Source: Echinarachnius parma (Eukaryota > Echinodermata > Echinoidea > Clypeasteroida > Echinarachniidae). Taken from it: DNA of 64,000 bases. Location: the NCBI GenBank assembly GCA_037951105.1, contig JBAMJV010007454.1, forward strand, positions 1 to 64,000. The letters run 5' to 3'. Shown here piece by piece: positions 948 to 47,900 of the stretch. Numbering within the stretch: position 1 is the first letter of the stretch; each line of letters starts with the position of its first letter. The notes beneath the pieces are model-generated. The model ran no database searches and was not told where the DNA came from. It worked only from the letters and a program-made list of their open reading frames with translations. The position numbers and the translations under genes were made by a program.

Positions 948-1320
948 TTTGTTGCTTCACATAATATGTCTCATAAAAATCAATCAAACAGAAAACACTC
1001 CTTATTCTCCTTGTGATTGCTTCACATAATATTTAAAATAGAAATCAATTTGCTTCACGTAATAATTCATACAAATAGGAATCAATCAATCAATCAAGGT
1101 TGCTTTTGTTTTGTTTTTTCCTTCACATATATTTAAAAATTGAAATGAATAAAACAGAAAAGTTTTTTTTTGTTGGTTTCACATGTAATTAAAATAGAAA
1201 ACCTATCAAACAGGAATGGTTTTCTTTTTGTTTGCTCCTTGCCACATTTAAAAAAAAAACTTAAAATAGAAATCAAATAGAGCGAAAGGCTCTTTCATCA
1301 TGGTTTTTTTTATAGCCACA
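948..1320. repeat. degenerate 60-80 bp tandem repeat
   Basis: Five or so diverged units share the pattern CTTCACATAATAT followed by AAAATAGAAATCAATCAAACAG. Units vary through T-run length changes. Non-coding. Confidence 0.55.
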
Positions 1321-1623
1321 TCTATGTATTTCAAATAGACATCTTAACACGAAGGTCACTCAAGTATCAATATTGTTTCGGTTTCGCATGAAAGAAAAAG
1401 ACGATAACCTCACGTTACATAAATGCACAAACCCTGCGCCAAGGTCTTTTAATAACCGGCATAGAGACGAAAATAAAACACAAAACACAAAATGGTCCGC
1501 ATACATTTCCCTCGTGGCTTTTTCTTTTCTTTCGGGGGTTATTATTATGACGATGGCCTTGCCTGTTAATCAAGCATGAATTATGGCTATGTATCCTGTA
1601 GCCTTGAGGAAATGATTCCATGC
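1321..1623 (+). other. non-repetitive island with a short frame ending in a hydrophobic segment
   Basis: Between two repeat arrays lies a stretch that I cannot match to any repeat in the window. It holds a 68-codon frame (1373-1579) whose last 25 or so residues form one plausible membrane-spanning helix after a basic, polar N-terminus. It has no clear splice donor and no supporting neighbour, so I do not call it a gene. Confidence 0.2.
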
Positions 1624-2696
1624 ATAATTCAGCTTTAGGAATAATGAATCGGCATCCCCTTTTTTAGCAGCGTCAAGTCAACGCACAACACAACACGGTC
1701 TGGTCTGCGAAGTGTTTCCTATGTGTTTCTCTTGCTCTCTCTGACTCTATATATATATTTTACACCCTAGCAATCTTCTCTGAACAGTCAGTCCCCCCCC
1801 CCCCTCCATTCTGTCTTCCTCCTTTACATTGAATATAAGTTACAATTATCATAATTTAGCTTTAGGAATAATGAATCAGCATCCCCTTTTTAGCGTTAAG
1901 TCAACACAACACAGTCTGGTCTGCAAAGTATTTCCTCTGTGTTTCTCTCGCTCTCTCTATACATATATTTTACACCCTAGCAATCTTCTCTTAACAGTCA
2001 GTCCCCCCCCCCTCCCCCCTTCCATTCTGTCTTCCTCCTTTATAATGTTCAAGAGGAAAGAAAGCTTTATAGGTAAAATAAGTTGTCCTCAATATATTAA
2101 GATGAATATAAGTTGCAATTTATCATAATTTAGCTTTTTAGGAATAATGATTGGCATCCCCTTTTTAGCGTCAACACAACACAACACGGTCTGGTCTGCG
2201 AAGTATTTCCTCTGCGTTTCTCTCTCTCTCTCTATATATATATTTTACACCCTAGCAATCATCTCTGAACAGTCAGTCCCCCCCCCCCCCCCACCCCTTC
2301 CATTCTGTCTTCATCCTTTCTATAATGTTCAAGAGGAAAGGAAGCTTTATAGGTAAAATAAGCTGTCCTCAATATTTAAGATGAATATAAGTTGCAATTA
2401 TCATAATTGAGCTTTTTAGGAATAATGATCGGCATCCCCCCCTTTTAGCGTCACGTCAACACAAAGTCTTCAAAGTATTTCCTATCTGTCTCTCTCTTTA
2501 CATATTTATTTTTCCCCCACCCTAGCAACCTTCGGCTGTGCAGTCAGTCCACCCCCCTCCCCCCTCCCCCCTCCCCCCTCCCCTCCCCTCCCCTCTATTC
2601 TTACTTTCTTCCTTCTATAAATGTTAAAGTGGAATGATACCTTTGGTGAAATAAATTGTTCTCAATATAAGAAGACGAATGTGATAACCATCAAAT
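1624..2696. repeat. tandem array, four units of about 227-281 bp
   Basis: Four units each begin near GCTTTAGGAATAATGA (about 1632, 1859, 2130, 2411), continue through CAACACAACACGGTCTGGTC and TACACCCTAGCAA, and end in a poly-C run followed by CCATTCTGTCTTC. Unit length changes mostly through the poly-C and CT segments. The fourth unit is the most diverged. Confidence 0.85.
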
Positions 2697-2889
2697 AAAT
2701 TTGAGCAAAATCAATATTGAAATACATGTATAAAGAAAGATTTTTTTCACACCTAAACAAATACACATATATATACAAAGCATGTAATTTTGTGTGCGGC
2801 TATATATTATATAATGCACTTATATATTTGTATACATGTACATATTTAGGTCTATGAAAACGCCCTGTGATATTTAGGCGAGATTTCAT

Positions 2890-3125
2890 AAAAATCTCTG
2901 AAACAATCAAAATAAACACTCACAAAACAACACACACAGGCGCGCATACACACCATTGTACTTCAAATGCTGCCACGTTACAGAACATATCGGTACTGCA
3001 TTTCTTTTCGGGATGTAAAATGCTACGCCAGCATTGTGATAGCATGGCCAGATTTCTGAATTACCTCTGAAACAATTGAAATAAACACTCACATAAACAC
3101 ACAAACAAACAAGCACGTACACACC
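2890..3125. repeat. two diverged units about 170 bp apart
   Basis: The block TCTGAAACAATCAAAATAAA with the following CA-rich ACACACCATT segment occurs at about 2897 and again at about 3067, so this looks like a two-unit minisatellite. Confidence 0.55.
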
Positions 3126-3155
3126 ATTAAAATTTAAATGTACTGCGAATGCAAA

Positions 3156-3338
3156 TACAGTAGTCTCAGCTTAATGGGGTAACATTTAAAGGGGTACTCC
3201 TGTTAAACGGGTAAGATTTGAACAAACATTTCTTATGTATCTTCAGGAAATTTCCACCACTTAAAGGGGTACTCCTGTTTATAAATGGGTTAAATATCCC
3301 TTGCAAAACACAACCCCATTTAAGCGGAGAGTACTGTA
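3156..3338. mobile_element. 183 bp TA-flanked MITE, pogo/Tc1-like termini
   Basis: The ends form a terminal inverted repeat: TACAGTAGTCTCAGCTTAAT on the left, and the reverse complement of TACAGTACTCTCCGCTTAAA on the right. TA at both edges plus CAGTA termini is the arrangement seen in Tc1/mariner/pogo elements. An internal AAAGGGGTACTCCTGTT motif is repeated. No coding capacity. Confidence 0.6.
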
Positions 3339-3734
3339 TTGCGAAAATACTGCACTATTCTTTTTTGCAATGTGAAATGCTACGCGACACGACACAACAC
3401 AACACACAAGGAAGAGATATTTTGGCAAGGCTCGCCTTACCTAGCTACATGTAGCTAGCATGCGCGAGTGATTGATTGATGTTTTTGCTTGCACAACGTC
3501 CAAACTCCCAAGGTCGGTGCAGTATCTGAAGGACACGAGACCTTACTCTGCCAGCCGGAGAGCCCTTTATATTCCCATCCCCGCGCCAGGTCACGTACGT
3601 AGGGATGTTTATTAAAGTCATCCATTTTAACTTTGTCAAGTTCAACTCCCCCGCCCCCCCCCCCCCCCCCCCCCTCCCAAATCACTTGGAGCTAGCTTTC
3701 ACATTTCCCTTGCATCTTGTGGTTGTTGTTGGGT
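3339..3734. other. no gene; short palindrome and 30 bp poly-C run
   Basis: Contains an ACACAAC-rich patch, the palindrome CTAGCTACATGTAGCTAG near 3432 and a C-rich run at about 3646-3676. Frames reading through the C-run give Pro or Gly tracts and are artefacts. Confidence 0.5.
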
Positions 3735-4018
3735 TTATGGTAGGTAACAGAAGAATGAAATGGGTTTCGATCGCTCAATTGTCTCCCTAATTATGGTGGT
3801 GATATTTATGATTGGATCAAAGTCATTCCAGGAACGCCTTTGGTGATCAATGTTCACTTTATTCACTAGGTAAACAGTTTTTTAAAATTTTTATAAAAGT
3901 GAAACTATCATACACCAATCAGAAGAATCGTACAATGATATCAAGTCTCAAATATTGAAGTCTGAAATTAAAATATCACTTTTGGAAAAAATTGTATGAA
4001 GATATTGGATCGCTTTAA
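3735..4018. repeat. dispersed repeat J, copy 1
   Basis: Shares an ordered series of blocks with 39938-40253: ACAGAAGAATGAA, GTCTCCCTAATTATGG, a TTCACT...TTTAT block, CAGAAGAATC.TACAAT, AATATCACTTT and GAAGATA.TGGATC. The two copies are heavily diverged. I cannot assign it to a transposon class. Confidence 0.5.
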
Positions 4019-4188
4019 TGCTGGTTTGGCTGTACTTTTTTGTTTTCGGTCATGGGACTGTACCACATGCCACCATTGCCACGTAAAGAGTTTTGTAAAT
4101 GATCTGTCAAAAAATTGCAGTGGCTGACTAAATGATATACTATTAGAAACAAGCTATAAAAACAGTGGTCGTGATAATGACAATATTG

Positions 4189-4398
4189 ACAGTGGTGGTG
4201 GTGGTGGTGGTGATGGTGGTGGTGGTGGTGGTGGTGGTGGTGATGGTGGTGGTGGTAGTTGTGTATGAGGTGGTGGTGGTGGTAGTGGTAGTTGTGTATG
4301 AGATGGTGGTGGTGGTGGTGGTGGTGTTGGTAGTTGTGTATGAGGTGGTGGTGGTGGTGGTGGTGGTGACGACGACGACGGTGATGATGATGACGATG
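4189..4398. repeat. (GTG)n/(GAT)n microsatellite
   Basis: Long imperfect GTG triplet array with inserts of AGTTGTGTATGAG repeated three times, grading into GAC and GAT triplets. The six-frame poly-His, poly-Thr and poly-Val translations are artefacts of the triplet repeat. Confidence 0.95.
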
Positions 4399-5324
4399 AT
4401 AATGATAATGTTTGTCATGCAACTGACTGTACGGCTTTCCAATACTTGCTTGGAACAGGTAGATATGTATAGAAAACATATATTGTGGAAATCTGATGTA
4501 CCAAAAAAAAACGGAAACATATTGCACGTCAACCAACTCCTTAAATAGTTTAGTGCCTAAATTGGATTACAAACTTGATTAATAATCACTTTTAGTATAT
4601 AATGAAAATATTTGTAATCAATACATTCTATCATGACCCATTTGAAAGAAGAGGGCAAAATTCACTGGATAAATCGAAGGTCTAGCTTTATTCTATGTAA
4701 CACTCCCTATAAGAATAGATTACCGAAGAACTAGCGCACCCCAGGGCCAGAGTATTGTGGAGAACATGAAATTAAACCGCTACCATCTGCTCAATGTACA
4801 CAAAAATAAATCTACGTTACGCTCGGTGTATTCGCAAATAGATCTACCTTATGCTCAGCGTATTAAAAATACATGCAAACAAGGGTGCATTCCTATTAAA
4901 GCAGTAAGCCACGCAAATAACCGCCCACAAATCTCGATCCTATTCATCCGGAAAAATCAATTTTCCCCGGTGCCGATCAAGCTGTTTGCAAAGCTGTTCA
5001 TGGAAAGAGAATAGATATCTACAAATTCATCTTACCAGCAACTTCTAGGTGTTTTTTTTCTTCCCTTTTCAATGGACTATGTTTAAAATTCAAGGTTATA
5101 TAGGAGTTACTTTTTTTCTGCTTCTAGAATCCCTTGGTAGTTGTTTTTATTTCCAGCGAAGGCCGATCAATAAAGATATCTCTCTTTCTTTTTTCCCTCC
5201 ATTTTCTGGTAAAACCTTCTTCCTTAAAAAAAAAAAAAATGTACAGGTAGACGGCACTGCACACACGTAGCCAGGATTTTCATTGATTTGTTTTTGTTTT
5301 AACTATAGTCAATACCTTTACAGG
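4399..5324. other. no gene or repeat recognised
   Basis: Mixed A+T-rich sequence. An 85-codon frame at 4757-5014 spans an imperfect internal duplication (AAATCTACGTTACGCTC and AGATCTACCTTATGCTC); I see no protein family in it. Confidence 0.4.
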
Positions 5325-5640
5325 AGTAAGTGCAAGAGAGAGAGAGAGAGAGAGAGAGCCAGGCAGGTAAAGCAAGAGTGAAAGGGAGAGATGGGAAAAG
5401 AGGAGAGAAAGGAAGATAAAAGGAGAGAAGGCAAAAGAAAAGGAGAGGGGGAGTAAATCAATGCTTTTTTTTTTTCAATCACCAACACTGAGGTAGAGGT
5501 AGAGAGAGAGAGAGAGGCATACAGAGATAGATAGAAGAAAAAAGGAGAGACAGGCAAAGAGAAGGAGAGGAGATAAAAGAAAAAGAAAGAAGGCTGAAGA
5601 GAAGGAGAGCGGGCGAGAGAGAGAGAGAGAGGAAGGGCTG
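5325..5640. repeat. GA-rich purine tract
   Basis: (GA)n with GGAGA and AAAGA variants, interrupted by ATCAATGCTTTTTTTTTTTC. It is followed at 5664 by GTCAATGCCCGATCA, a phrase that also follows the GA tract near 12560, so the two tracts may share an ancestral repeat. Confidence 0.85.
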
Positions 5641-6289
5641 AACAACAGCGGGCCAACAAAGTGAGTCAATGCCCGATCAAGGTCGCAGGATGAATAATAA
5701 AGCAGGGGAGAGGCTCACGCTAAGCGTGACCTTTTTGTTTAGCGGGTAGTTTGGTAATGAGTTTGCTTTAACCGATCATCTTCTGCCTGGAGAGCAGTCA
5801 AGGCTATGGAGATTCTTGTATTACATGCTCTTGAGTCTGACCAGACCATGGTCACTCATAAAAAAAAAATATATATATATATAAAAACAAATTAGAGCCT
5901 ACAACTTTACAAGAAGAAACAAATTGGAGCCTAAAGAATAAACAATAAGAGCATTAAAAAAGGGAAAGATGAATTGAAGCCTGAATTTTAAAAGGAGGGT
6001 CACTATTGACACACAAAGCCAAACAAGATCCACTTTGTGTAAAAATTAAAACAAAAATTTAAAAATAAGCAGCTTTTGTTTTGTATCGCGCATAACACGT
6101 TGCAAGGCACATCATTATGCGCTTGTATTATTATCCTGGTCGTTACTGCATGGTACAGTTCAAACCAGCACAAATATCTTGGGCAGCATCTCAACTCCTC
6201 AGGAAGCATACTACATGTATATAGCCAAGAGCAGCCATTTGATAGCACCCAGGCAAATTAACAACCGACCAAAAATATAAAAAGGGTTG
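5641..6289. other. no gene recognised
   Basis: Includes an AT-dinucleotide patch at about 5866-5883 and otherwise unique-looking DNA. No RNA gene or open frame of interest. Confidence 0.4.
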
Positions 6290-7690
6290 ATCCATTGAAG
6301 ATGATCTGACATGGTTAATCAACCCCTCTGAGTGCTGCTGTAAGTTAAATTCCAAGAATCCACTTTAAAATCCGGATCTTAAAACCAAGTTTAAATGAAC
6401 AATGTTATAACCTGTGCCTATTCATCGATTGCTGAACATTAATGCAGTCATTTTGCATGCTCTTACTATCAGCTGCCATGAATCCATTTTATCTGCATCT
6501 TAAACCAAGTTTACATGAATAATCTAACCTGAGCCTATTCCTCTATTGCTGGACATTGAAGCAATCCTTGGACTGTGCTTGCTCTTACTATCAGCTGTCA
6601 ACCCATAATGCTTTGCCAGTTAACTACTGCCTTGAACTCAAGAGGAGGCAATATTAATTACATCTATGACATTCCTTGATTGTTTGCTGGAGCACCCTGT
6701 AGCTACGCCCTTGACTGAGAGCAACTCGAAGAGAGTCAAATTGATGGACATTTATGCAGTCCTTGGGCTAACCCTAACTATCAGCCATCCTTCCAAATCA
6801 TATTGTCAGTTTATTGCTTGATGAAGGAGACAAATTTATTCATTATGTTTTGAGTTTTTGCTTGAGCACCCTGTCTGCAGCTATGTCCATGGATGACTAT
6901 GGATGACGACAGGCTATTGTGGGTCAAACTGCTGGACATTAATGCAGCCCTTGAGCTTGCTCTTACGCTCTGCTATCATCCCAGATTACTTTGCCTGTTA
7001 ATTTCCATGAATGTCCTTGAGGCAAAACCCAATTCTACAATGTCAGTCCCCTTTTGTTTTTGCTGGAGCACCCTGTAGCTATGTCCATGGATGAATACAT
7101 GCTATTATGGGTCAAATTGCTGGACATTAATGCAGCCCTTGAGCTGCTATTACTCTCAGCTTTCATCCCAGTTAATTTGTCCTTGAATGAGGACATCACT
7201 GGGGGGAAACCCAATCGTACAATGTCAGCTGGAGCACCCTGTAGCTACGTCCATGGATATTGACAGGCTATTGGGGGTCAAACTGCTGGACATTAATGCA
7301 GTCCTTGAGCTTGCTCTTATGCTCAGCTTTCATCCCAGAATACTTTGCCAGTTAATTTTCCCTTGAATGCCCTTGAACGAGGACATCACTATGGGGGAAA
7401 CCCAATTCTATAATGTCAGTCGTTGTTTTTGCTGGAAAACCCTGTAGCTACATGTATGTCCATGGATGATGACAGGCTATTGGGTGTCAAATCGGTGGAC
7501 ATTAATGCAGCTCTTGCACTTGTTATTTCAGCTCAGCTTTCATCTAAAATGAATTAAACAGCTAACTGCCTGGATATTAGCGGGGAGCTGCGTCCTTGAA
7601 TGGGCTAGCACACCTAGCTAAAGGGAATCAAATTGCAGGACATTGACGCAGCGAGGCCCTTGAGCTCCGGCAAACACTCAGATTTCATCC
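6290..7690. repeat. tandem array of about 165-200 bp units (six or more)
   Basis: Recurrent anchors are GGAGCACCCTGTAGCTA (about 6690, 6866, 7066, 7231, 7432), GCTGGACATTAATGCAG and CAGCTTTCATCCCA. Early units (6290-6650) are the most diverged. Frames of 61-69 codons run through some units only because the array is stop-poor. Confidence 0.85.
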
Positions 7691-7940
7691 CATATAACCC
7701 GCCTCTGCGGCGGCGGCAGGTAGTGGTGTGGTCTCACCGATGCATTAATTAGCCTTGATGGTCCATGGAGAAATTGTCCTCTTATCATCAGTTCTATCTT
7801 CACATACATTTGTAATCACACCATTTACACAGCCAAGCGTTATCGTATATCTTTGAAGAACTTGGAATACGGAGATCACGCTATCTAGTGAAAAAACAAA
7901 CACGTTGAAATGCGCCTTGAAATCAACAAATGAACATGCC

Positions 7941-10969: not shown

Positions 10970-11049
10970 TTAACCCGTTGCTTACGTGAACCGGGTGGGT
11001 TATGTGCAAAGTCTATGGGGATTTCAGAATCTCGAAGGGAGCAGGTTAA
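10970..11049. repeat. family B mini-MITE, full 80 bp (GAAATC subtype)
   Basis: TTAACCCGTTGCTTACGTGA at the left and GCAGGTTAA at the right, core TCTATGGGGATTTCAGAATC. Exactly 80 bp from TTAA to TTAA. Confidence 0.7.
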
Positions 11050-11161
11050 ACCAATGCTAACTATTAAACACAGGTAGCAAGCTGTCTATGAGGTGTGCAG
11101 GTGAACTAATTACTAAACTACATCAAGCCCACCAGGTTCCTGTGTGCAATTGGTTAAATCT

Positions 11162-11726
11162 TTAAAGGGCAATGAAACCCAAGCAAAATGTTGCTTTCAT
11201 AGTCTTGAAGAGATTAAGAAGAATAATCTCTGAAAGTTAGAGCATAATCGGGTAAAAAACAAGGAAACTACGGTTCTTTGAAGATGTCCATTTATTCCTA
11301 TGGGGAACTCAAATTGGCAACGCACTCTGATAAGTGTGTGGACAACTCCCCATATGTTTTGTACACAAATGTTCCCATTTTTACAGTTTTCTTCATAGTC
11401 ACATTTTTCCATTCCCCCAACTCATGATATGTTATGTATAAAAGCATTCTACAACACATATGTTGAACTTGAACGAAGGGTAAACATACATTTTGAGAAA
11501 ATTTAACAAAACTGAAATTTTGTGTACACAATGTATGGGGAGTTGTCCACAACTTTTCCAGAGTGCGTTGCCAATTTGAGTCACTCAAAGAAATACATGG
11601 CTCTTTTCAAAGAGCCATAGTTTTCTTATTTCTTGACCGATTGTGCTCAAATTTTCAGAGACTATTCATTATATTTAGTGTCTTATAGTGCATACAACAA
11701 TTTGTCTGGATTTCATTGTCCTTTAA
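11162..11726. mobile_element. 565 bp TTAA-bounded hairpin MITE
   Basis: TTAAAGGGCAATGAAA at 11162 is mirrored by TTTCATTGTCCTTTAA ending at 11726. Inside, CTCAAATTGGCAACGCACTC and GTGGACAACTCCCCATA are mirrored by GAGTGCGTTGCCAATTTGAG and TATGGGGAGTTGTCCAC, so much of the element folds back on itself. Minus-strand frames of 71 and 96 codons cross both arms and are not convincing proteins. Termini fit the TTAAAGGRR rule of T2/Kolobok-type MITEs. Confidence 0.75.
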
Positions 11727-11979
11727 GTAGTGCAGACAAAATAGGGACTTGAAACAACTCTATAGGAATTAAAATACAACAGACTAAGGACATCATTGGA
11801 AATTGAGATGGGAGGAGCTAGCTCGCCCCATACGAAATCAGCAGATTGGAAAAAGTCCATACGTGAGGACAACAATTGCAACAGTTTGTTTTTTCAAAAA
11901 ATGAGGAGGTATATTATAAACAGAAAAAAATACATGTAGCTATCACCCTGATTTCATTAACCCCCGATGATTATCAGCA

Positions 11980-12480
11980 CAGGGAGAAAACAATAACGAT
12001 TCGTCCCTGAAACATACTCGGGCTTATAATGAGCGGAATAGCATGAATAGAAAGTCGACAGCGAGAGAGGGAGAGAGAGGGGGTGAAACTCATGAAAGGA
12101 AGGTGGGCTGTTTGTTTTTTTACAAAAATGCAGTAGTAATTGAAAAATACATACATGTACATTAGCTGACAAAAACAAAATTGAGATTTCACTAGAGAAA
12201 ACAATGATATTTCACGCTTGGGATGTACTTGGAATTAACGAGCGTAATAGAATGAATAGAAAGTCGAAAAAAGAGAGAGGGGAAGAGAGGGGGGGGGGGG
12301 GGGGGGGGAGAGAGAGGATGAACAAAGGTGGGAAGTTCGTTTTAAAAAAAAACGAGGAAGTAACAGAAAAATACATACATGAAGAAAAAAAAACACTGAA
12401 ATTTCACTAGAGGAAACAATGATAGTTCGTCCCTGGAATGTACTTGGAATTAATGAGCGGAATACGATGAATAGAAAGTC

Positions 12481-12511
<31 letters not shown>

Positions 12512-12520
12512 CGAGGGTGG
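11980..12520. repeat. three units of about 215 bp, each ending in a GA tract
   Basis: Anchors AAACAATGATA(T/G)TTC, GTACTTGGAATTAA(C/T)GAGCG and GAATAGAAAGTCGA recur near 11990, 12200 and 12415, each followed by a GA or poly-G tract (12270-12312 and 12481-12510). Confidence 0.7.
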
Positions 12521-12749
12521 GCGGGCCGTGTGGCCTTGACGCCCTAGTGATCAGAGCAGAGTCAATGCCCGATCACAAACAAGTCTGACCTCAGACAAGG
12601 ACACACGCTAAGCTCGATATAGACGCAACGCAACGCTAAACTAAAGCGATCGAAGCCGAGCCAAAACCTGACCCAAATCCATGCTGATCTCCAGGAAACA
12701 GCGGCTCTTCAAATCATGGCCCTCATTTTGTTTTTGTCTTTTTTTCCGC

Positions 12750-13080
12750 GTGGTTGCTAAGTTTTCTCTTGTTTGCTTGCATGTTTGGTTTTATATCATC
12801 CTTGTTCTAACAGCCGCTAACACAAAAAAAATTAAATTGCTAAGTTGCCTCTTGTTTGTATGTTCAGTTTTATATCATCTTTGTTCTAACAGCAGCCAAC
12901 ACAACAAAACCATCAAATTTCTCTAAATAAAAAATAATTCTCTTTTTCACAGAAAAGAATCACCAATGATTACAATTTGTGCTTTCTCTTTGCAAAGTAA
13001 TCTCTTGTTTGTAACTATGTTCAGTTGATATTATCTCCGTTTCCAACAGCCTTCAACTTGATAAAAACGACACATAGAAA
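12750..13080. repeat. degenerate tandem repeat, three units
   Basis: TCTTGTTTGTATGTTCAGTT then TATATCATC.TTGTTCTAACAG recurs at about 12767, 12848 and 13000. Confidence 0.6.
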
Positions 13081-14276
13081 AACCCACATACATGTACATT
13101 CTCTCTTTCACAGAAGTGAATGGCAAATGCGACAATGTTTGCTATCTCATTATATTCTTTACTATTATGTACTTGCAGGCAAATTTTCTTTATGTAATTC
13201 TTTGACAAATTCACTTACCTGTATTAAAAAAACCATGGCAAAGGTGAAAGTTGAAACGCAGCATGAGCCAGCACAGATGGAGCAGAAGGAAGGAAAGGGG
13301 AGAAAATAAAAGAAGTTATATTAATGAGGGGATCATTTTTATTTTCAAGTGAAACAAATAAATACATTTACTATAACTTTAGCAAGATATGATGTGTTGT
13401 TAATTGCAATTATATGTGAGAGAGACAAATTTGTGTTTCTTAATTGCATCATTCATATTAATTGTAGTGAATAAACATCACAAACAATTTTACACGTGGT
13501 GAAATTCTATATCTAAAAAAAGTAAAAACGCATCAGTTATTCATATACAACAATAAATCTCATCTCAAATGTATTCAGGTATGCTGAATTTACACATTTA
13601 GGATGTGGTATTCCTTGAAAAAAAAAGTTTATTCATTTCAACAATTTTGCATGCTTTTCAACACCCATCAACTCAATTTGTTAGACTTTTCAAAAATTCA
13701 TACATGCTACACACACACAAAAATGACCAATTAAAATAATAAATCAACCTTTCAGGAAATGTCCCCATATTTTAATGGTCAAGGGGACAAAAGTAAAGAG
13801 AAAAGTCAATGTCCGATGCTTGACCTACTCTTCTCTTGGCTTCTCTGGCCGGGTCAACCCCCAGCCAAAAACCTAAATACCCTTAATTCTGCAACCCCCT
13901 CCTTTTAGCACAAAAAAAACAACCAAAAAACACCCCAAAACAAACTAAATAAAACACATACCCATATGGTTCTTGACACACCATTAACCCCACCCCTCCC
14001 TGGGTCTGTACATTCATATGCAGTCAATACACCACTTAAAACTAAACAGTTGGCAATGACTTTACCCTCTTGATCCAGGTCAGCCCCACCATGCAGCATT
14101 CTCGAGCCCAAACACCCAAATAACCCCTAAGACTCTGGTCTGACCCAGACCAGAGCCCAGAGACCACAAGCCAGACCTCATAGACCACAGGATCTAAATC
14201 CTTTCTGACAACCCCCCTCCCCCTCCCCATGCCTGACCCCATTTTGTTCTGGCTGTGAGATCAAGGCCAGAGAGCG
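13081..14276. other. no gene or repeat recognised
   Basis: A+T-rich to about 13790, then C-rich to 14276. Several 60-70 codon frames in the C-rich part have no recognisable motif. Confidence 0.4.
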
Positions 14277-18209: not shown

Positions 18210-18450
18210 ATCGGTTGAGAAAAATAAGGGCGCTAACTCACTATTTTCTTTTTAGGAGGTAATCACGTTTAAAGTTTGATAGCCATGTAGAAACCACGAT
18301 GCTCTCTTTTAAATTTTGTGGAATATTCCCAAAATTAGACATACTTTATCTGAAATATGTGCATCATGTAGAGGAGGCTCTGGCCTACACGATGGTGTGC
18401 GTAACTCTATTTAGCCAGAGATGCCTTAACGCCCTTCTCACTCTCACCCC
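18210..18450. mobile_element. family H MITE, copy 1
   Basis: GGTTGAG..AAGGGCGCTAACTCA at the left is mirrored by TTAACGCCCTTCTCACTCTC at the right. Middle landmarks: GTTTAAAGTTTG, GCC.TGTAGAAACC, AGAGG(A)GGCTCTGGCCTACA. Copies 2 and 3 lie at 57813 and 60146. Confidence 0.65.
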
Positions 18451-18712
18451 CACAAACTATAACAACAATACCTACTGGGCAGTTTGTTTTGTGTGGTCAA
18501 GCAGAAATGGCAATGGGAAAATTGTGATATGTGGAGGAATAAATGGTCAATGGACCTCCATGATATGGGTGACTGAGGGGAGGAAATGAGATCTTCTTAG
18601 CCCAAAACTGGGCTAAATGGGATCAAATTGCTGACAGAACTGGGGCAGAGAAGAAGGATATTGGAGCAATTGGACTTAGGCCACACACCTGGCTGGAATA
18701 ACTGACCTTAGC

Positions 18713-18959
18713 CAGCGGTGTAGCTAAGGGGGACACAGGGAAGAGGTGGGGGTTGACCCCCATGTGGTTATTATTGCCCCCTTCCAACACCCCCCTCCCT
18801 TCCTTGTCTGAAGAAAAAAAAATGACACTGCACATTCATAACACCATATTTTCTTTATTTGCTTTTGTTTCACACTGCCCCCCCTCCCTCCCCCTTATTA
18901 TTATGAATATTCACCCTCATCTTAGACCCCCTTCTTTGGGACCCTTGGCTATGCCTCTG
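18713..18959. mobile_element. 247 bp hAT-like MITE with near-perfect 8 bp duplication
   Basis: CAGCGGTGTAGCTAAGGG at the left and CCCTTGGCTATGCCTCTG at the right form imperfect terminal inverted repeats. The flanks are ACCTTAGC (18705-18712) and ACCTCAGC (18960-18967), an 8 bp duplication with one mismatch, as expected of hAT-type transposition. Confidence 0.65.
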
Positions 18960-19039
18960 ACCTCAGCACAAGGCTTAGGGGTGTTTGCAATGGTAGGGGG
19001 ATAGCAAAAACAAACAGCCCCTCTGAGTTTAGATGCTAA

Positions 19040-19700
19040 ATTTGGATTTAATAGTTTGATTTGAGGGCAAGTACTCCAAAATACCAAGTTTATGCAGTGG
19101 ACGGATATTCTGATCACTTTAGCCCCTAAATGACCACTGAATGACCACTGGATGACCTTAACTCTGGGACATGTTATGACTGACCCAAGCAGGTCAGCTA
19201 AGGACAAGGGTGCTGGGCTTGATGTAGTCTTGATTTGCAGAACAATATGAAACTGACATGTAAGTCCGAAAATGACTGCAAGAGGGCGGGAACCTCTTTA
19301 GCCCCATAATGGTCCAATACTTGACCCTACCTCGGGACATATTATGACTGACCCAAGCAGGAGATCAGCTTACTGGCAACAAGGGTGGGTTTGATGTAGT
19401 CTGGATTTGCAGAATGATAAGAGACCTATGTAACATTGTCCTCAAAATGAACCCCTTTTTAGCCCCTAAATGGTCCAGCACTTGACCCTAACTCAGGACA
19501 TGTTATGACTGCCCAAGCAGGTCACCTGGGGAAATGGCTGGATTTTATGTAGTCTTGGGTTTCAGAACCAATATGAAACTGAATTTTAAGTCCTATAATG
19601 AGGGAAGGGGGGAGAGGACCCCTTTAGCCTGCCCCTCAATGATATAATACTTGACCTTAGCTCGGGACATGTTATAAACGTCAGCTATGAAGTAGTAAAG
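19040..19700. repeat. tandem array of about 160-171 bp units (four)
   Basis: Anchors GGACATGTTATGACTGACCC at about 19168, 19337, 19497 and 19668, with TTTAGCCCCTAAATGGTCCA, GGTTTGATGTAGTCT and GCAGAACAATATGAAACTGA in each unit. Confidence 0.8.
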
Positions 19701-19881
19701 CTAAATTGTATGTACTCTGCAGAACAAATCCATGTTTTAATGCAATCTCTTTGTAAATTTACAATATATTTGAACAACAAAACAACCCCTTTAATTTAAA
19801 AGACCATCACAATCATCGCTTGACCCCTAGAAGTCTCGGTCCACTTATCAATTTTGAAACAAATTGCTCATGTACGATATG

Positions 19882-20240
19882 TATCACTGGCTGGAATGAT
19901 CCCCAGGGAGTGAAGATAGTGCACATGTGTTGCTATATTGAGCCGTGTATCCGATGACGAGGTAATACTAATAACATCACAAGCATCTTCCTGGAAGAAC
20001 AGTGCAAAGGCACCAGAAAGACTACATTAAAGCTTAGGTAAACAAAACTACATGTTTATCACTGGCTGGAATGATCCCCAGGGAGGGAAGATAGTGCACA
20101 TGTGTTGCTATATTGAGGTGTGTATCCGATGACGAGGTATAATACTAATAACATCACACGCATCTTCCTGGAAGAACAGTGCAAAAGCACCAGAAAGACT
20201 ACATTAAACCTTCTAGGTATAAACAAAACTACATGTTTTG
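19882..20240. repeat. direct duplication of about 175-184 bp carrying a SINE-body-like segment
   Basis: Two units (19882-20056 and 20057-20240) read TATCACTGGCTGGAATGATC, CCCAGGGAG, TGTATCCGATGACGAGGTA, GAACAGTGCAAA, CACCAGAAAGACTACATTAA, AACAAAACTACATG. The segment from GGCTGGAATG to GATGAC..GGTAATA also forms the front of the SINE-like insertion at 49752, so a retroposed body appears to have been duplicated. Confidence 0.75.
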
Positions 20241-20989
20241 AAGTTCTAAAGGTAATAACAAAATAAGTTTGTTTTAAAGTGCACTTTACTTCAAGTTCAA
20301 TCCAAGTTGTACTCTGATGAAACCAAAGCCACCATAAAAAAATCCCCGGTTTGAGTACCTACAGTACCTGTTGTTGCAACGAATGTTATTCTATGTTTGA
20401 TACCTTATTTCCTAAGATGTTATGTTTCCCCCATGAGTATGCATTATAGCCGGATAAACAAGGCAATAAAATGAGCCATCTCTCAAAAATAAAACCTACT
20501 AAAGCTCAATGTCAATTCACAGGGCAATGAAATAAGAAATGTTTTCATAAATACAGTACTAGTACTTATGTTTGAACTCAATCCACACTGGCAATAAAAT
20601 ATGTAACCCTTTCTTTCACTAGTAAACTTCTATTGTTGAATGATAGTCCCCCCAGATGTAGGGTACTTAAAAGGTGAAGTAAGGGATTTGCTCAATAAAA
20701 AAAAACACATGAATATTTCATCCATCGTAAATTACTTAAATACAAAAAGAAATATAATATGATATTATGATTATACATTACACTTCGTACTATTCTTGCA
20801 AGTTCAACAATATAAACTTTATATAATTGGTGAAATAAAATAATATTTGCACATAATTTTTTAATTTCCTGTTAGCCAATCATAATAACAATGGTTTTGA
20901 ATGTGACGAAAATGACCATAAGATTTGTTATTATATAAATACAAAGTAAATGGCCTTTTCATCTATCCTGGTGTGCTCTTAACATCAAA
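20241..20989. other. AT-rich, nothing recognised
   Basis: No repeat shared with the rest of the window and no credible frame. Confidence 0.4.
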
Positions 20990-43483: not shown

Positions 43484-43699
43484 GGAACTTCCAACAAGAT
43501 ATCCAAACCCGATTCCATTTCTAGACTATGTTCACCTAATTCGTTGCAACAGATAAATAAAATGAAACCAGATGAATTATACGAGGGGGGTCTTGCGTCA
43601 ACGTCAACAGACATATACGAGGGGAATTTCCCCAAAGTGAGTGTAGAAGTAAAGATTTTTTTCTGCGAACGGCCGGCCGGGGAGCACATGTTTTAATGA

Positions 43700-43886
43700 T
43701 GTGACGGCGACCCATAGCCGCTTTGATGTAATTAAGCGTGCCATAGGCACGCGACGTTGATTTTTTAACATGGTTTCATTGAAAGCAACTTCTCGGCAGT
43801 TTTGTGTATTCTTTTTGTGTATCTTTTGAGAGGAACTCGGGAGAGTTTGGTGGTTATGAAGTTCCAATCATCATCAACTCATAACA
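43700..43886 (+). repeat. 5' LTR
   Basis: 187 bp, TGTGACGGCGACCCATAGCC to CATCATCAACTCATAACA. No obvious TATA box. Short for an LTR. Open frames crossing it have no gag or pol similarity. Confidence 0.9.
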
Positions 43887-43906
43887 TGGGGGCTTGTAGC
43901 CGGGAG
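43887..43906 (+). promoter_or_regulatory. primer binding site, proline-tRNA-like
   Basis: TGGGGGCTTGTAGCCGGGAG begins at the first base after the LTR. Its first eight bases equal the proline-tRNA primer site known from murine leukaemia virus, and the rest aligns with one substitution and a 2 bp insertion before CCGGGA. The tRNA identity is an inference; position and TGG start support primer-site function. Confidence 0.6.
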
Positions 43907-44225
43907 AATTTGCAGTTTTCTGTAAGTTTCGAGGTAGTATTGCCGGTTCTTTATGGTGTGTGCTGAAATTTATTTTGCCTGTTAATATCCCGCCGTACTC
44001 GTTCGGCGTTATCGTTTGCGCGCGATCTCCGCGCCGATGTTTCTGGGTCGCTGCGACGGTAGATTTGCCCGTGCAGTGTGTGTATAGTACGTGCTTAGTG
44101 AGTTTGTGTATACTTGGTTTAATTGTATACGGGTTGCACTGTGGGGGATAAAGTGCCAGGGATTCTAGTTTTGAATTAGGAGCATTTTGTTTGACAGTGT
44201 GAGTGCGAGCCACTGAGTTGTTACT

Positions 44226-46313
44226 ATGGCATTCGATATTGGGACATTTGTGACGTTTCCCAGGGTGGAAGACCTGCTTTTGTGCAGGAAGGTAGATTTG
44301 CTGGAGGTAGTAAGTCATTATGAGGTTGAGGGGGTGCATAGCGGCATGAGGAAAATGGAAATTCTGAATCGTACAGTAGAGTACTTGGTAGAGGAGGAGA
44401 TTTTGCCTGCCCAGGCGTTGCGTAGCATTTCTGCTAGGGTCAATTTCACTCAAGAAAGTGAGAGTGTGGAGGTAAAGTTGAAGGAGTTGGAGGTTGAAAA
44501 GGCAAAACTAGATTTGGAACGTGAAAAGGTTTCTCTTGCGAGGTCTAAGAGTGAATGGGAGAGAGAGCATGAGCAGTCTCGTCAAAAAGCAGCCTATTTT
44601 GATGTTACAAAGCATGTTCGTATGGTTCCTGTATTCGAGGAGGATGATGTTGATAGGTATTTCCGTCATTTCGAGCAGGTGGCCGAGAGCATGGAATGGC
44701 CGGTGTCAAAATGGCCGCATTTGCTGCAGTCGCAGTTGAAAGGTAAAGCGCGTGATGCCTATGCTGCGCTCTCGTTGGAGGAGGCTGGCGAGTATGTATC
44801 GGTGAAGCAAGCAGTACTTTGTGCGTATGAGCTCGTGCCGGAAGCCTACCGTCAAAGGTTTCGGAATGTGAGAAAAGAGGATTCTCAAACTTATCGGGAG
44901 TATGCAAATGTCAAGTCTGGTCTGTTTGATAGGTGGTCACAATCGGTTGGCGTTCATGACTTTGATGCATTGCGTGAGCTTGTGCTGCTCGAGGAATTCA
45001 AGCGAACGTTGCCAGCTGAAGTGCGCATGCATCTCGAGGAACACCAGGTGACACGGTTGTCACAGGCTGCAACGATGGCTGATGATTTTGTCCTCACTCA
45101 TAGGGTCATGGATAGGTCTGTACCACAAGGTGATCGATATCGACGTCAGATGGGTGGTAGTAGGGATGAAACAGATGGTGTAAGATTGGGTGAGTCTAAC
45201 AGTGAAGAGAGTCCTAAACAGTCACGTAGGTCATGGAAAATGTTGACTTGTTTTCATTGTGGTGTACAAGGTCACATACAGACTAATTGTCCAGATTTAC
45301 AGGGAAATAACACAGACAGAAAGAACACACACACAAACACAGATGAAAAGAACACACACACAAAGACGTTTCCTAATGGTCTAGTTAGGAGTGTTGGTGT
45401 TACACAGGTGAAGGTGCATGGTGAAAGTGTAGTCTTGTCTGCTGAACCTGTTGAACTTCAAAATCAGTATGGGCCTTTCATTTCAACAGGGTATGTGTGT
45501 TTGTTGGAGAGTGATGAGGCTCGCAAGGTCAAGGCGTTCAGGGACACTGGAGCTTCCCAGTCGTTGATTGTTGCAGATGTGTTGCCTTTCAGTGATGCTT
45601 CAGCCACTGGCTCTAGTGCGATTCTTCAGGGCATTGGCGGCAACATTTTGAGTGTGCCATTGCACAGCGTGGATGTGGGTTTGAACATCATTTCTGGGCC
45701 TGTTACTCTTGGGGTAGTGGAGAAACTGCCCATTCCAGGCGTGTCATTGATTGTCGGGAATGACATCGCTGGAGATCAGGTGATGGTTGGTTCAGGTGGT
45801 CTTGGAGATCCCGGTGCTGATATGGAGGGAAGTCTTCGCTATGCTAGAGGGATGAAGGTTGGGGCGACGGTGTTGAACAGCAACCATGATGACGTCGGGC
45901 AGCTGATGACAACCCAGGACGAGATGGTGTCTTCGGGTGTCGCAGACCGGTCCTCTGATGGCGAGCAGGCTAGACTGCATGATAGGCGGCGACGTGGGAA
46001 TCGGCGACGTGAGTATCATCGCATGCAGGAGACCTCTCTGCCCAGGGACTGTGCTGAAGCAGATGATCTGGAGGTACCTGGTGAGGTGTCTGATGGCAGG
46101 CATGTTCAGCCTGTCTTCCAGGAAAAGAGGGCCCTTGCTGGTGAGGCGGCGCACTCCGCTGTTGGCGAAGATCACGGTACGAAGGAGACTCCTCTCGATG
46201 GGTGGTGGGGGGATGTCCCTCCCCTTACCGCTGTTCGGCGACCAGGGTTTGGAACTGGAGCGATACGGCGTGCTAGACGTCGGCCGCGAAAGAAGCGCGG
46301 AGGTCGACGATGA
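44226..46313 (+). CDS. gag-pro: retrotransposon Gag-aspartic protease polyprotein, 695 aa
   Basis: Gag assembles the particle that packages element RNA; the protease would cut it. Residues 80-122 form a charged coiled coil. Residues 133-293 are a helical capsid domain of the SCAN-like Gag type, with the conserved MEWPVSKWPHLLQSQLKGKA run and EEFKRTLP later. A single CCHC zinc knuckle follows: C342, C345, H350, C355. The retropepsin active site is D440-T-G-A-S444, with the flap-side GIGG motif and the LIVGND motif ending at D513. After about residue 520 the sequence is low in recognisable motifs and ends in an Arg/Lys-rich tail (681-695). The ATG at 44226 has G at +4 and follows a 339 bp leader. 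The frame stops at TGA 46311-46313 with no pol after it. The C-terminal tail may be the junction of an internal deletion of pol. It is transposon, not host, coding sequence. Confidence 0.92.
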   Translation: MAFDIGTFVTFPRVEDLLLCRKVDLLEVVSHYEVEGVHSGMRKMEILNRTVEYLVEEEILPAQALRSISARVNFTQESESVEVKLKELEVEKAKLDLEREKVSLARSKSEWEREHEQSRQKAAYFDVTKHVRMVPVFEEDDVDRYFRHFEQVAESMEWPVSKWPHLLQSQLKGKARDAYAALSLEEAGEYVSVKQAVLCAYELVPEAYRQRFRNVRKEDSQTYREYANVKSGLFDRWSQSVGVHDFDALRELVLLEEFKRTLPAEVRMHLEEHQVTRLSQAATMADDFVLTHRVMDRSVPQGDRYRRQMGGSRDETDGVRLGESNSEESPKQSRRSWKMLTCFHCGVQGHIQTNCPDLQGNNTDRKNTHTNTDEKNTHTKTFPNGLVRSVGVTQVKVHGESVVLSAEPVELQNQYGPFISTGYVCLLESDEARKVKAFRDTGASQSLIVADVLPFSDASATGSSAILQGIGGNILSVPLHSVDVGLNIISGPVTLGVVEKLPIPGVSLIVGNDIAGDQVMVGSGGLGDPGADMEGSLRYARGMKVGATVLNSNHDDVGQLMTTQDEMVSSGVADRSSDGEQARLHDRRRRGNRRREYHRMQETSLPRDCAEADDLEVPGEVSDGRHVQPVFQEKRALAGEAAHSAVGEDHGTKETPLDGWWGDVPPLTAVRRPGFGTGAIRRARRRPRKKRGGRR

Positions 46314-47045
46314 CAGAACTTTTGGGGAAAGGACCACGTACATGTAGCGGCCTCTGCTCACCTTTGATTGTGACTAAAAGTAAAATGGACTCATGTGTTT
46401 TGGAAACATTTGGACGCTGAAATAACAACATGGACAAACTTTGAAATTTTTAGTAACTCAAATAGACATTTAATTCACATCAAATCGCAGTGAATATGGA
46501 ACTGAGCTTGCATTGGACTGTTAACATTGTTGTTTAAAAAGGAGAAGAACGTGCTCTTGAAATTTTAGTTAAGAAAGTAAACCAAAATTGATAATTAACA
46601 AGAATACATGATGATGTGTTTAATTGTTGACATTGAGAGTAAATTTGTTACACATTTTGTAAAAAAAAAGCATGTATTCTGCATTTATTTCATACACAGT
46701 TTACCGCTATTGTATATGTTTTTCCTACAGGTGTTCCTTGTTGGACCTAGTGACGGTACATTATGTATGTTGTTTTTGATATACTATGATCTCTGTTGTG
46801 TGTCAATCATACGTTTAATACTCAAAACATTCTTGGCATGATTGATTACTCAGTGAAAAATGCAAAGTTTTAGAAAGCTTTGGAAAAGAAATGCATTTTT
46901 ATTATGATATTAAGTTTAGATACATGTATGTGAAACAAAAACAAACCAGAAAAAGAGAGATACATACGGTAAGAGTCAAGAGAAACTTTGTGTTGTAAGA
47001 AATATAGTTTTGACATTGATATGAATAATGTAGTTATGTCAGTGT

Positions 47046-47205
47046 TTGGAATCCCTAACGCGCTAGCATTAACGTTAGTGTTTCCTAACGCGTTTTCTAA
47101 CGTGTTTACGTTAGCCTTAGAAATTTTTGGAATGCGTTTAACGAAAAAATGAAAACGTTAGTGTTTTCTAACGCGTTTGCGTTAGCGTTGGGAATTTTTG
47201 GCATG
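47046..47205 (+). repeat. TAACGCGTT/AACGTTAG palindromic repeat inside the LTR element
   Basis: Two related units of about 90-110 bp carry CTAACGCG, AACGTTAGTGTTT, TTTACGTTAGC and AATTTTTGG.ATG(C/T)GTT. Multiple self-complementary AACGTTAG and TAACGCGTTA cores would let the RNA fold. Function unknown; a packaging or dimerisation role is only a guess. Confidence 0.7.
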
Positions 47206-47610
47206 TGTTAAAAAAAAAAAAGAAAGAAAAAAAGTAGGCTTTCGAAGAAGTGATTTAATTGGAAAGTTTTTAAATTGTTATGAAAGGATGCTTGTGACAT
47301 AATGGCTCATGTGATACATGGTAAAGATAATATTTGGTATTGGTACAGGATTACAACTACTGTACATGTTTAGAATCTTGATATTTGTTTAGAATTAGAA
47401 ATGAGCAAAATGTGACCCATCGCATGCTTGGGCAAAGCCAGTAGGCTATTGTATAAATTTGTTTGTGATGAAAGTTTGAAAGTTTACGATATAGTTATTG
47501 ACAATGTGAAAATCATAGGGCTTAGTTTATATACATTCAGTTTCGTGTTTGTTTTATAATGCCAGGAGCAGGTTGAGGTCATTTATTTCTATTGTATAAA
47601 TGCCCTCTTT

Positions 47611-47621
47611 AAGGAGGGAAG
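47611..47621 (+). promoter_or_regulatory. polypurine tract
   Basis: AAGGAGGGAAG lies immediately 5' of the right LTR, the expected place and composition for the plus-strand primer of reverse transcription. Confidence 0.8.
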
Positions 47622-47808
47622 TGTGACGGCGACCCATAGCCGCTTTGATGTAATTAAGCGTGCCATAGGCACGCGACGTTGATTTTTTAACATGGTTTCA
47701 TTGAAAGCAACTTCTCGGCAGTTTTGTGTATTCTTTTTGTGTATCTTTTGAGAGGAACTCGGGAGAGTTTGGTGGTTATGAAGTTCCAATCATCATCAAC
47801 TCATAACA
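47622..47808 (+). repeat. 3' LTR
   Basis: 187 bp, base for base the same as the 5' copy on visual comparison, followed by ATGA. Confidence 0.9.
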
Positions 47809-47900
47809 ATGAGTCGAGCCATGTGCCTGTGAAACACATGTTGATAAACATCAAACAAAGTCTTAATTCTCTTTGAGTTAAAAGATGACAAGCGAACTTA

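Follow-up and report, generated by a model that had tools for sequence, protein, structure and literature searches.

A pol-less LTR retrotransposon family encoding Gag and protease in Echinarachnius parma, and its candidate Gmr1-like helper

How is a retrotransposon copied and integrated when it encodes Gag and a protease but no polymerase and no integrase? The question is raised by an element in the window analysed here, the whole of a 64,000-nucleotide stretch of the echinoderm Echinarachnius parma (contig JBAMJV010007454.1, positions 1 to 64,000). The complete long terminal repeat (LTR) element spans 43700-47808 on the + strand (4,109 bp). We consider it, with a probability of about 0.87, to be a young member of a non-autonomous LTR family that is propagating and would owe its copying and integration to the Pol of a Gmr1-like helper, a full-length element of the same genome.

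Architecture of the element

A sequence-only reading of this stretch had described identical 187-bp LTRs, a target duplication of 4-5 bp, a primer site, a polypurine tract (PPT) and an unbroken 695-codon frame, and had noticed no reverse transcriptase (RT), ribonuclease H (RNase H) or integrase (IN). All of these features were recovered, the LTRs being identical base for base and the duplication 4 bp long, with ATGA on both sides. The parts of the element are as follows.

43696..43699, no strand: 5′ copy of the 4-bp target duplication ATGA (3′ copy at 47809-47812)
43700..43886, + strand: 5′ LTR, 187 bp, no difference from the 3′ LTR
43887..43905, + strand: primer binding site (PBS) TGGGGGCTTGTAGCCGGGA, directly after the 5′ LTR
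43887..44225, + strand: 5′ untranslated leader, 82% identical to the helper in its first 213 bases and 98% in its last 126
44226..46313, + strand: single open reading frame (ORF), Gag-protease-tail, 695 aa, from ORF and Pfam searches
44226..44600, + strand: Gag N-terminal domain with coiled coil, residues 1-125; 96% DNA identity to the helper over codons 1-95
44525..44545, + strand: approximate mosaic breakpoint, where identity to the helper drops from ~96% to ~60%
44838..45101, + strand: SCAN-like capsid domain, residues 205-292 (Pfam PF02023, E 5e-17)
45246..45293, + strand: CCHC zinc knuckle, residues 341-356 (Pfam E 9e-4, 19.6 bits, cut-off 20.8)
45522..45764, + strand: retropepsin-like protease, about residues 433-513, with DTGAS and LIVGND (Pfam Asp_protease weak, E 0.19)
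45786..46310, + strand: Arg-rich C-terminal tail, residues 521-695, with no helper counterpart and related to two other pol-less classes
46314..47610, + strand: 3′ untranslated region (3′-UTR), its first part 89% identical to the helper in the window and 96% in three subfamily B copies
47611..47621, + strand: PPT aaggagggaag, adjoining the 3′ LTR
47622..47808, + strand: 3′ LTR, 187 bp, no difference from the 5′ LTR

The domains that had been assigned to the frame held to different degrees. The SCAN-like capsid was clearly recognized, its best solved relative being the SCAN domain of zinc finger protein 24 (PDB 3lhr, E 2e-5), while the CCHC knuckle fell just under the Pfam cut-off. Since the Pfam match to the protease is weak, that call rests on the alignment with the helper and on DTGAS and LIVGND, which we take to be protease motifs. 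The coiled coil is taken from a low-confidence model, and a single-sequence model of the N-terminal domain (predicted local distance difference test score, pLDDT, 70) had no PDB match at E≤0.001. We presume from its resemblance that TGGGGGCTTGTAGCCGGGA is a putative tRNA-Pro primer site. RT, RNase H and IN were found in the element neither by Pfam nor by tblastn with the helper protein as query, the latter giving no match that starts past residue 560 (E≤1e-3). The Arg-rich tail had gone unmentioned in the earlier reading. Five frames of at least 130 codons are present in the window and, besides the Gag-protease frame, three of them overlap the element. Its 3′-UTR also carries tandem repeats around ‘taacgcgttt’ at 47040-47225 (63-bp self matches), a zone whose length varies among the copies and the helper. 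Elsewhere in the window, a simple-repeat stretch at 4015-4536 gives rise to a His-rich frame on the minus strand.

A multi-copy family without pol

The LTR of the window element has at least 40 matches in the 1.2-Gb assembly (best 40 of 303 candidates scored). Seventeen of 20 fetched loci carry two LTRs (L022, L023 and L028 show one only in the fetched stretch), giving 18 two-LTR copies with the window element, and all 18 are flanked by 4-bp target duplications. The two LTRs of a copy differ by 0 bases in 10 copies, by 1 in 5, by 2 in 1 and by 3 in 1; L026 was left out of this comparison, as one of its LTR matches is a base longer than the other. Judged by the 5′ flank, only L010 and L019 share an insertion site among the fetched copies, so that the 18 represent 17 independent insertions. 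Element length was 4.0-4.6 kb in 15 of the 18 two-LTR copies; the other three, L019, L020 and L021, are longer and interrupted by extra DNA. A pol hidden in these longer copies was considered and rejected, as no helper-like pol was found. Across all 20 loci, as far as they were fetched, tblastn with the helper protein gave no match starting past residue 560 (E≤1e-3); the fetched DNA includes gaps of 5,000 N in L022 and 501 N in L025. The insert in L021 is a 3.6-kb, repeat-rich stretch within the 3′-UTR that holds an opposite-strand retroelement-like fragment (by eye, an integrase C-terminus).

One of the 20 loci, L023, belongs to a different class (class 3, below). The window element and the other 19 make up what we call class 1, which falls into subfamily A (window, L010-L014, L019, L021, L022 and L025) and subfamily B (L009, L015-L018, L020, L024, L026, L027 and the diverged L028). 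Of these 20 sequences, 13 retain an unbroken frame that begins at MAFDIG and runs for 678 codons or more. In a genome-wide protein search, 22 of 69 rows spanned residues 1-695 without a stop (best 64 of 654 candidates). Genome-wide, the distance from the end of the tail to the PPT was 1.0-1.5 kb in 32 of 38 class-1 copies assigned to a PPT, which therefore have no room for pol. The spacing is longer on C481, C2767, C2798, C2896, C6277 and C6613; no pol was found in C2798 and C6613 when fetched, and none of the six contigs appears among the helper RT matches (best 107 of 1,928 candidates). The search that the sequence-only reading had proposed thus turned up many pol-less copies at different sites, and the two outcomes that it had named as fatal, a private deletion and a single copy in the genome, are both ruled out by them. 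Because both subfamilies are pol-less and tailed, pol had already been lost in their common ancestor.

Two further observations concern these copies. Primer sites differ among L009-L027 copies with nearly identical LTRs, being of the TGGGGGCTTGTAGCCGGGA, TGGGGGCTTGTCCGGGA, TGGGGGCCAGTCCGGGA and TGGGGGCTGGTAGCCGGAAG types, which suggests different priming tRNAs or recombination. In addition, contig C10743 carries two class-1 frames in one orientation, 7.4 kb apart (11011-13101 and 18432-20522), possibly a tandem or segmental copy.

A full-length candidate helper

The same protein search (best 64 of 654 candidates) returned 10 rows at 61-63% identity, 8 of them at 62% over residues 1-520, and 4 of the 10 sit in 1,587-codon frames. 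Two copies of this helper, L029 and L030, were fetched. L029 is a 6,740-bp element (1079-7818) with identical 186-bp LTRs and one 1,585-codon frame in the order Gag-protease-IN-RT-RNase H. When its protein was searched against Pfam in three overlapping pieces, SCAN (E 4e-17) and CCHC were recognized, together with the integrase zinc and core domains (H2C2 and rve) in the middle piece and RVT_1 and RNase H in the last, which places integrase upstream of RT-RNase H; the protease, to which Pfam gave no name, is assigned by position and motif. L030 differs from L029 by 4 residues, each of the two copies has its own 4-bp duplication, and the LTR pairs are 100% identical. The RT-RNase H piece was present at 99-100% identity in at least 10 loci, one of them covering residues 80-387 only (best 107 of 1,928 candidates). 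Gmr1-like Ty3/gypsy elements were reportedly described by Goodwin and Poulter in 2002, and the arrangement of IN before RT, together with SCAN, makes this element a candidate member of that group. The full-length sister that the earlier reading had asked for is therefore available, its LTR almost the same and its pol complete.

Relatives that have lost pol were also observed. At L039 (305-2419), a helper copy has lost the stretch that corresponds to about bases 2694-6434 of the helper element and retains a gag-pro frame of 704 codons; its identity to the helper is 97.7% before the deletion and 100% after it. This copy shows one route by which gag-pro-only elements can arise. L040 (1243-3537) belongs to another Gmr1-like family and has lost most of IN and RT in frame; its 764-codon frame matches the Gag-protease, the start of IN and the end of RNase H of the helper. 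Contigs C9610 and C8308 carry long frames with a start similar to that of L040.

Shared ends and a diverged core

The relation between the window element and the helper is that of a mosaic. Their LTRs are 96.8% identical (window versus L029), and the PPT junction, LTR ends and PBS are common to both, the primer site varying slightly among copies. The leader is 82% identical in its first 213 bases and 98.4% in the rest. Gag DNA is 96.1% identical over codons 1-95 and 60.1% over codons 106-318, a region in which the window element is 98.3% identical to L024 of subfamily B. At the protein level, residues 1-519 show 60% identity to the helper, residues 1-60 being identical. Over its first 600 bases, the 3′-UTR follows a different pattern: the B copies L009, L018 and L024 are 96.0-96.3% identical to the helper, and L009, L024 and the helper are each 89% identical to the window element (L024 89.2%). 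These patterns indicate that helper and parasite lineages have exchanged sequence, in one direction or the other. The simplest reading of the mosaics is that RNAs of helper and parasite are packaged in the same particle, where they swap ends by template switching. The mosaics thus suggest shared particles and would be indirect evidence for trans-mobilisation. The borrowing of polymerase and integrase in trans is strongly indicated by the shared ends and the sequence exchange.

We used the junction between PPT and LTR to count the elements that share these ends. Exact matches to this 24-base junction number 98 genome-wide, against 0 for the reversed control. Assigned by distance (up to 9 kb) to tail or helper RT matches, 38 junctions belong to class 1, 35 to class 2 (a capsid-less class described below; two of these assignments, at 6.5 and 8.2 kb, are weaker), 9 to helper RT and 16 to neither. 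Nine of the latter lie beside class-3 matches and one, on C12093, belongs to a pol-deleted helper; C3893 (12 kb past a class-1 frame) and C7880 (a decayed class-2 match) were assigned by proximity only. The final tally is 82 junctions in pol-less classes (84 with C3893 and C7880), 9 beside helper RT, of which two loci were fetched and some show shorter frames, and 1 in a pol-deleted helper; four junctions (C4971, C5170 and two on C6781) were left unassigned. C8855 is a class-1 locus without the junction.

Selection on Gag and protease

The ratio of nonsynonymous to synonymous change (dN/dS) was obtained from Nei-Gojobori counts between subfamilies, with binomial P values and a weighting by the transition bias of the 3′-UTR (kappa 3.8). 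For the window element (A) against L024 (B), the unweighted values were 0.05 in the N-terminal domain (N), 0.18 in the capsid (CA), 0.31 in the nucleocapsid-protease part (NC-PR) and 0.62 in the tail. The weighted values were 0.08 (P = 0.009), 0.25 (P = 0.010), 0.42 (P = 0.022) and 0.80 (P = 0.27), respectively. Two further A-B pairs gave 0.13 and 0.20 in N, 0.34 and 0.44 in CA, 0.46 and 0.48 in NC-PR, and 0.84 and 0.90 in the tail. Synonymous and nonsynonymous changes numbered 28 and 22 in N, CA and NC-PR together versus 20 and 38 in the tail (Fisher P = 0.03; N and CA alone, P = 0.02). Against the helper, synonymous sites of capsid and protease are saturated, with dN of 0.39-0.51. The N-terminal, capsid and nucleocapsid-protease parts have accumulated fewer amino-acid changes between subfamilies than expected under neutrality. 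Since neither A nor B has pol and both have the tail, this selection postdates the loss of pol. The earlier reading had offered ‘selection or very recent deletion’ and had proposed a dN/dS test across gag copies. The test, on few changes, returned values below 1 in the Gag and protease parts, so that selection stood; a very recent deletion did not, because A and B are both pol-less and tailed and their capsid has ~60% DNA identity to that of the helper.

How the family may move, and the alternatives

In the mechanism that we favour, the Gag-Pol of the helper would supply RT, RNase H and IN, while Gag and protease of the window element would assemble particles, alone or mixed with helper Gag, a co-assembly that the shared N-terminal domain would permit. 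Such particles would take up the element's own RNA together with helper Gag-Pol; helper RT would then use the shared PBS and PPT and helper IN the LTR ends common to both, and the mosaics would arise by template switching in mixed particles. The basic tail may add RNA binding. As the tail is weakly constrained, only its composition or its open frame may matter. Because Gag is under selection, and a pure free rider would lose it, the data suggest that the element's own Gag serves its own RNA.

The element could instead ride free, with helper Gag-Pol doing all the mobilisation and its own Gag-protease a useless, decaying leftover. The broken frames of class 1 (7 of 20 sequences have no frame of at least 678 codons) would agree with this, as would the near-neutral tail, from which NC-PR alone is not significantly different (Fisher P = 0.25). 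We nevertheless regard it as unlikely, given that, in three pairs from subfamilies that were already pol-less, the weighted dN/dS of N, CA and NC-PR lies at 0.08-0.48, and that these three parts taken together do differ from the tail of the same open frame; the 22 of 69 rows that are open over 695 codons point the same way, though young copies are open without selection too. That the family is simply the known helper minus pol, by a recent internal deletion, appears very improbable. Deletions of this kind do happen, as L039 and the in-frame case of L040 illustrate, but the 60% DNA identity over codons 106-318 and a 175-residue tail that is absent from the helper argue against it. A mutual division of labour, in which the helper makes fused Gag-Pol and the pol-less elements are the source of separate Gag, would turn the pair into a two-part retrotransposon. 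The single 1,585-codon Gag-Pol frame of the helper, the almost unchanged N-terminal Gag domain and the ratio of 38 class-1 elements to 9 RT-bearing helpers at the shared junction all fit this arrangement. However, single-frame Gag-Pol elements can manage by proteolysis, nothing shows that the helper needs extra Gag and the numbers also fit plain parasitism, so that we hold it to be quite improbable.

Several points weigh against our preferred reading, that of a non-autonomous family served by the helper's Pol. The case is built on genome sequence, and most genome-wide searches score the best candidates only. The capsid-protease lineage may have been held, during the greater part of its history, by an autonomous element that is unsampled or extinct. 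The dN/dS values rest on few changes (6 nonsynonymous and 9 synonymous in CA between the window element and L024), all three pairs cross one deep split and are thus non-independent, the CA value of 0.44 in the L025-L009 pair has P = 0.098, and NC-PR is indistinguishable from the tail in the comparison given above.

The Arg-rich tail and two capsid-less classes

The tail was examined as a remnant of helper pol and as a frame open by chance, and both candidates were rejected. Residues 521-695 had no match above chance in the helper, and Pfam returned nothing above cut-off for the tail or the N domains. In three comparisons of class 1 with B or class 2, the coding frame of the tail had 0-1 stop columns versus 3-16 in the other two forward frames. 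In the same comparisons, its dN/dS of 0.70-0.88 counts against a role as protein; one reverse frame had 2-4 stop columns with dN/dS of 0.69-0.75, another had only 1-2 stop columns, and a rough comparison of class 2 with class 3 favoured no frame. Protein-level constraint on the tail is therefore weak.

Searching the genome with the tail, from residue 520 on, gave 103 matches (116 of 116 candidates scored). Counted by locus, with five rows set aside as second pieces, we assign 51 to class 1 (at least 70% identity) and 47 to another group at 44-55% identity, 39 of which sit in frames of 372-526 codons. This group includes class 2, represented by L031 (290-4090), a 3.8-kb element with identical 182-bp LTRs that are ~72% identical to the window LTR and with a 25-base PPT stretch identical to that of the window. 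The two copies of its target duplication do not match exactly (CCAT and CCGT), and two bases separate the LTR from the primer site. The 510-aa frame fuses a Gag-N-like domain (27% identity) directly to the Arg-rich tail; class 2 has no capsid, knuckle, protease or pol. The L031 N domain occurs at 45 loci with 80-100% identity, and no close full-length relative of it was found, the best reaching about 30% (130 of 130 candidates scored). Among five class-2 frames read, the N domain was constrained between two subgroups (dN/dS 0.34-0.44, P 0.002-0.018); the tail was unconstrained except between L031 and L033 (0.34 and 0.50, P = 0.03 and 0.045). A Gmr1-like family with a 1,520-codon frame at L032 was considered as a class-2 helper and rejected, since no match was found between its LTRs and those of the window element, the helper or class 2.

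In class 3, represented by L037 and L038, the LTRs are 91-93% identical to the window and helper LTRs, and the last 350 bases show ~94% identity. Its 388-aa frame (L038, 1272-2438) joins another Gag-N-like domain to a tail related to that of class 2, again without capsid, knuckle, protease or pol, and is unbroken in L038 and broken in L037; seven loci are complete at 97-100%. Classes 2 and 3 might be satellites with a dedicated adaptor, whose N domain would bind the Gag of the helper or of a partner and whose basic tail would bind their own RNA, smuggling it into helper particles, a proposal that we advance as doubtful. If true, adaptor satellites would be the retrotransposon counterpart of a delta-type satellite. 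Hepatitis delta virus, a satellite with an RNA-binding protein of its own and with machinery borrowed from a helper, serves classes 2 and 3 as an analogy only, being unrelated in sequence, replication and host.

Relation to known systems and significance

Animal LTR elements moved by the enzymes of relatives include MaLR/THE1 with ERV-L, deletion forms of intracisternal A particle (IAP) elements, and VL30; MaLR carries gag-like sequence. They differ from the present family in not being Gmr1-like, and we know of no satellites with a Gag-N domain and a tail for MaLR/THE1, IAP or VL30. The closest parallel is found in plants, where TR-GAGs are non-autonomous LTR elements with a single gag frame and no pol, such as AT5TE33540, and transposition of an Arabidopsis TR-GAG is reported in the available part of the source (PMC8704663). 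Like a TR-GAG, the window element has LTRs, PBS, PPT, a target duplication and one Gag frame without RT, RNase H or IN, and it is multi-copy with a related, potentially autonomous full-length partner in the same genome. Unlike a TR-GAG, it lives in an animal, has added a basic tail, and has a capsid-protease region far diverged from that of the helper while its ends are not; because the protease region is kept, we call it TR-GAG-like and not a strict TR-GAG. An echinoderm host also agrees with a mitochondrial contig, on which COX1 (Pfam; 12 in-frame TGA codons), tRNA-Arg (ARAGORN) and two frames identified by eye as ND4L and COX2 follow one another on one strand, an arrangement typical of echinoderms. 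In frogs, over 50% of Gmr elements bear SCAN, according to the text available from PMC4131045; the helper resembles Gmr1-like Ty3/gypsy elements in having integrase before RT and a SCAN-like capsid, from which the window element departs in having no pol. HAL1 (half-L1) is likewise a non-autonomous animal retroelement that retains a structural protein, keeping only ORF1p, with several origins (available part of PMC5753468), but it is a non-LTR element with another replication mechanism. Sea urchins abound in non-autonomous Troyka LTR elements (62 of 70), which are of another lineage, with CG...CG ends and 3-bp duplications (available part of PMC12440569).

A literature search for gag-only animal LTR elements found no match, which is no proof of absence from print. 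Elements with a Gag-N domain and a tail were not described in the titles and abstract starts searched, a set that lies mostly outside subscription papers and does not include Repbase. What distinguishes the present case from known ones is its lineage, the kept protease, a diverged core between near-identical ends, and a tail common to capsid-less satellites. Together these elements form an animal LTR system: a helper and parasites of several grades live side by side within a single genome, their frames open, their LTRs identical and the exchange between them visible. It makes testable why a parasite keeps a gag and a protease that its helper already makes, be it for cis-preference, co-assembly or the supply of Gag, and it raises the question of what role a capsid-less Gag-N and tail protein, open in dozens of satellite copies, may have.

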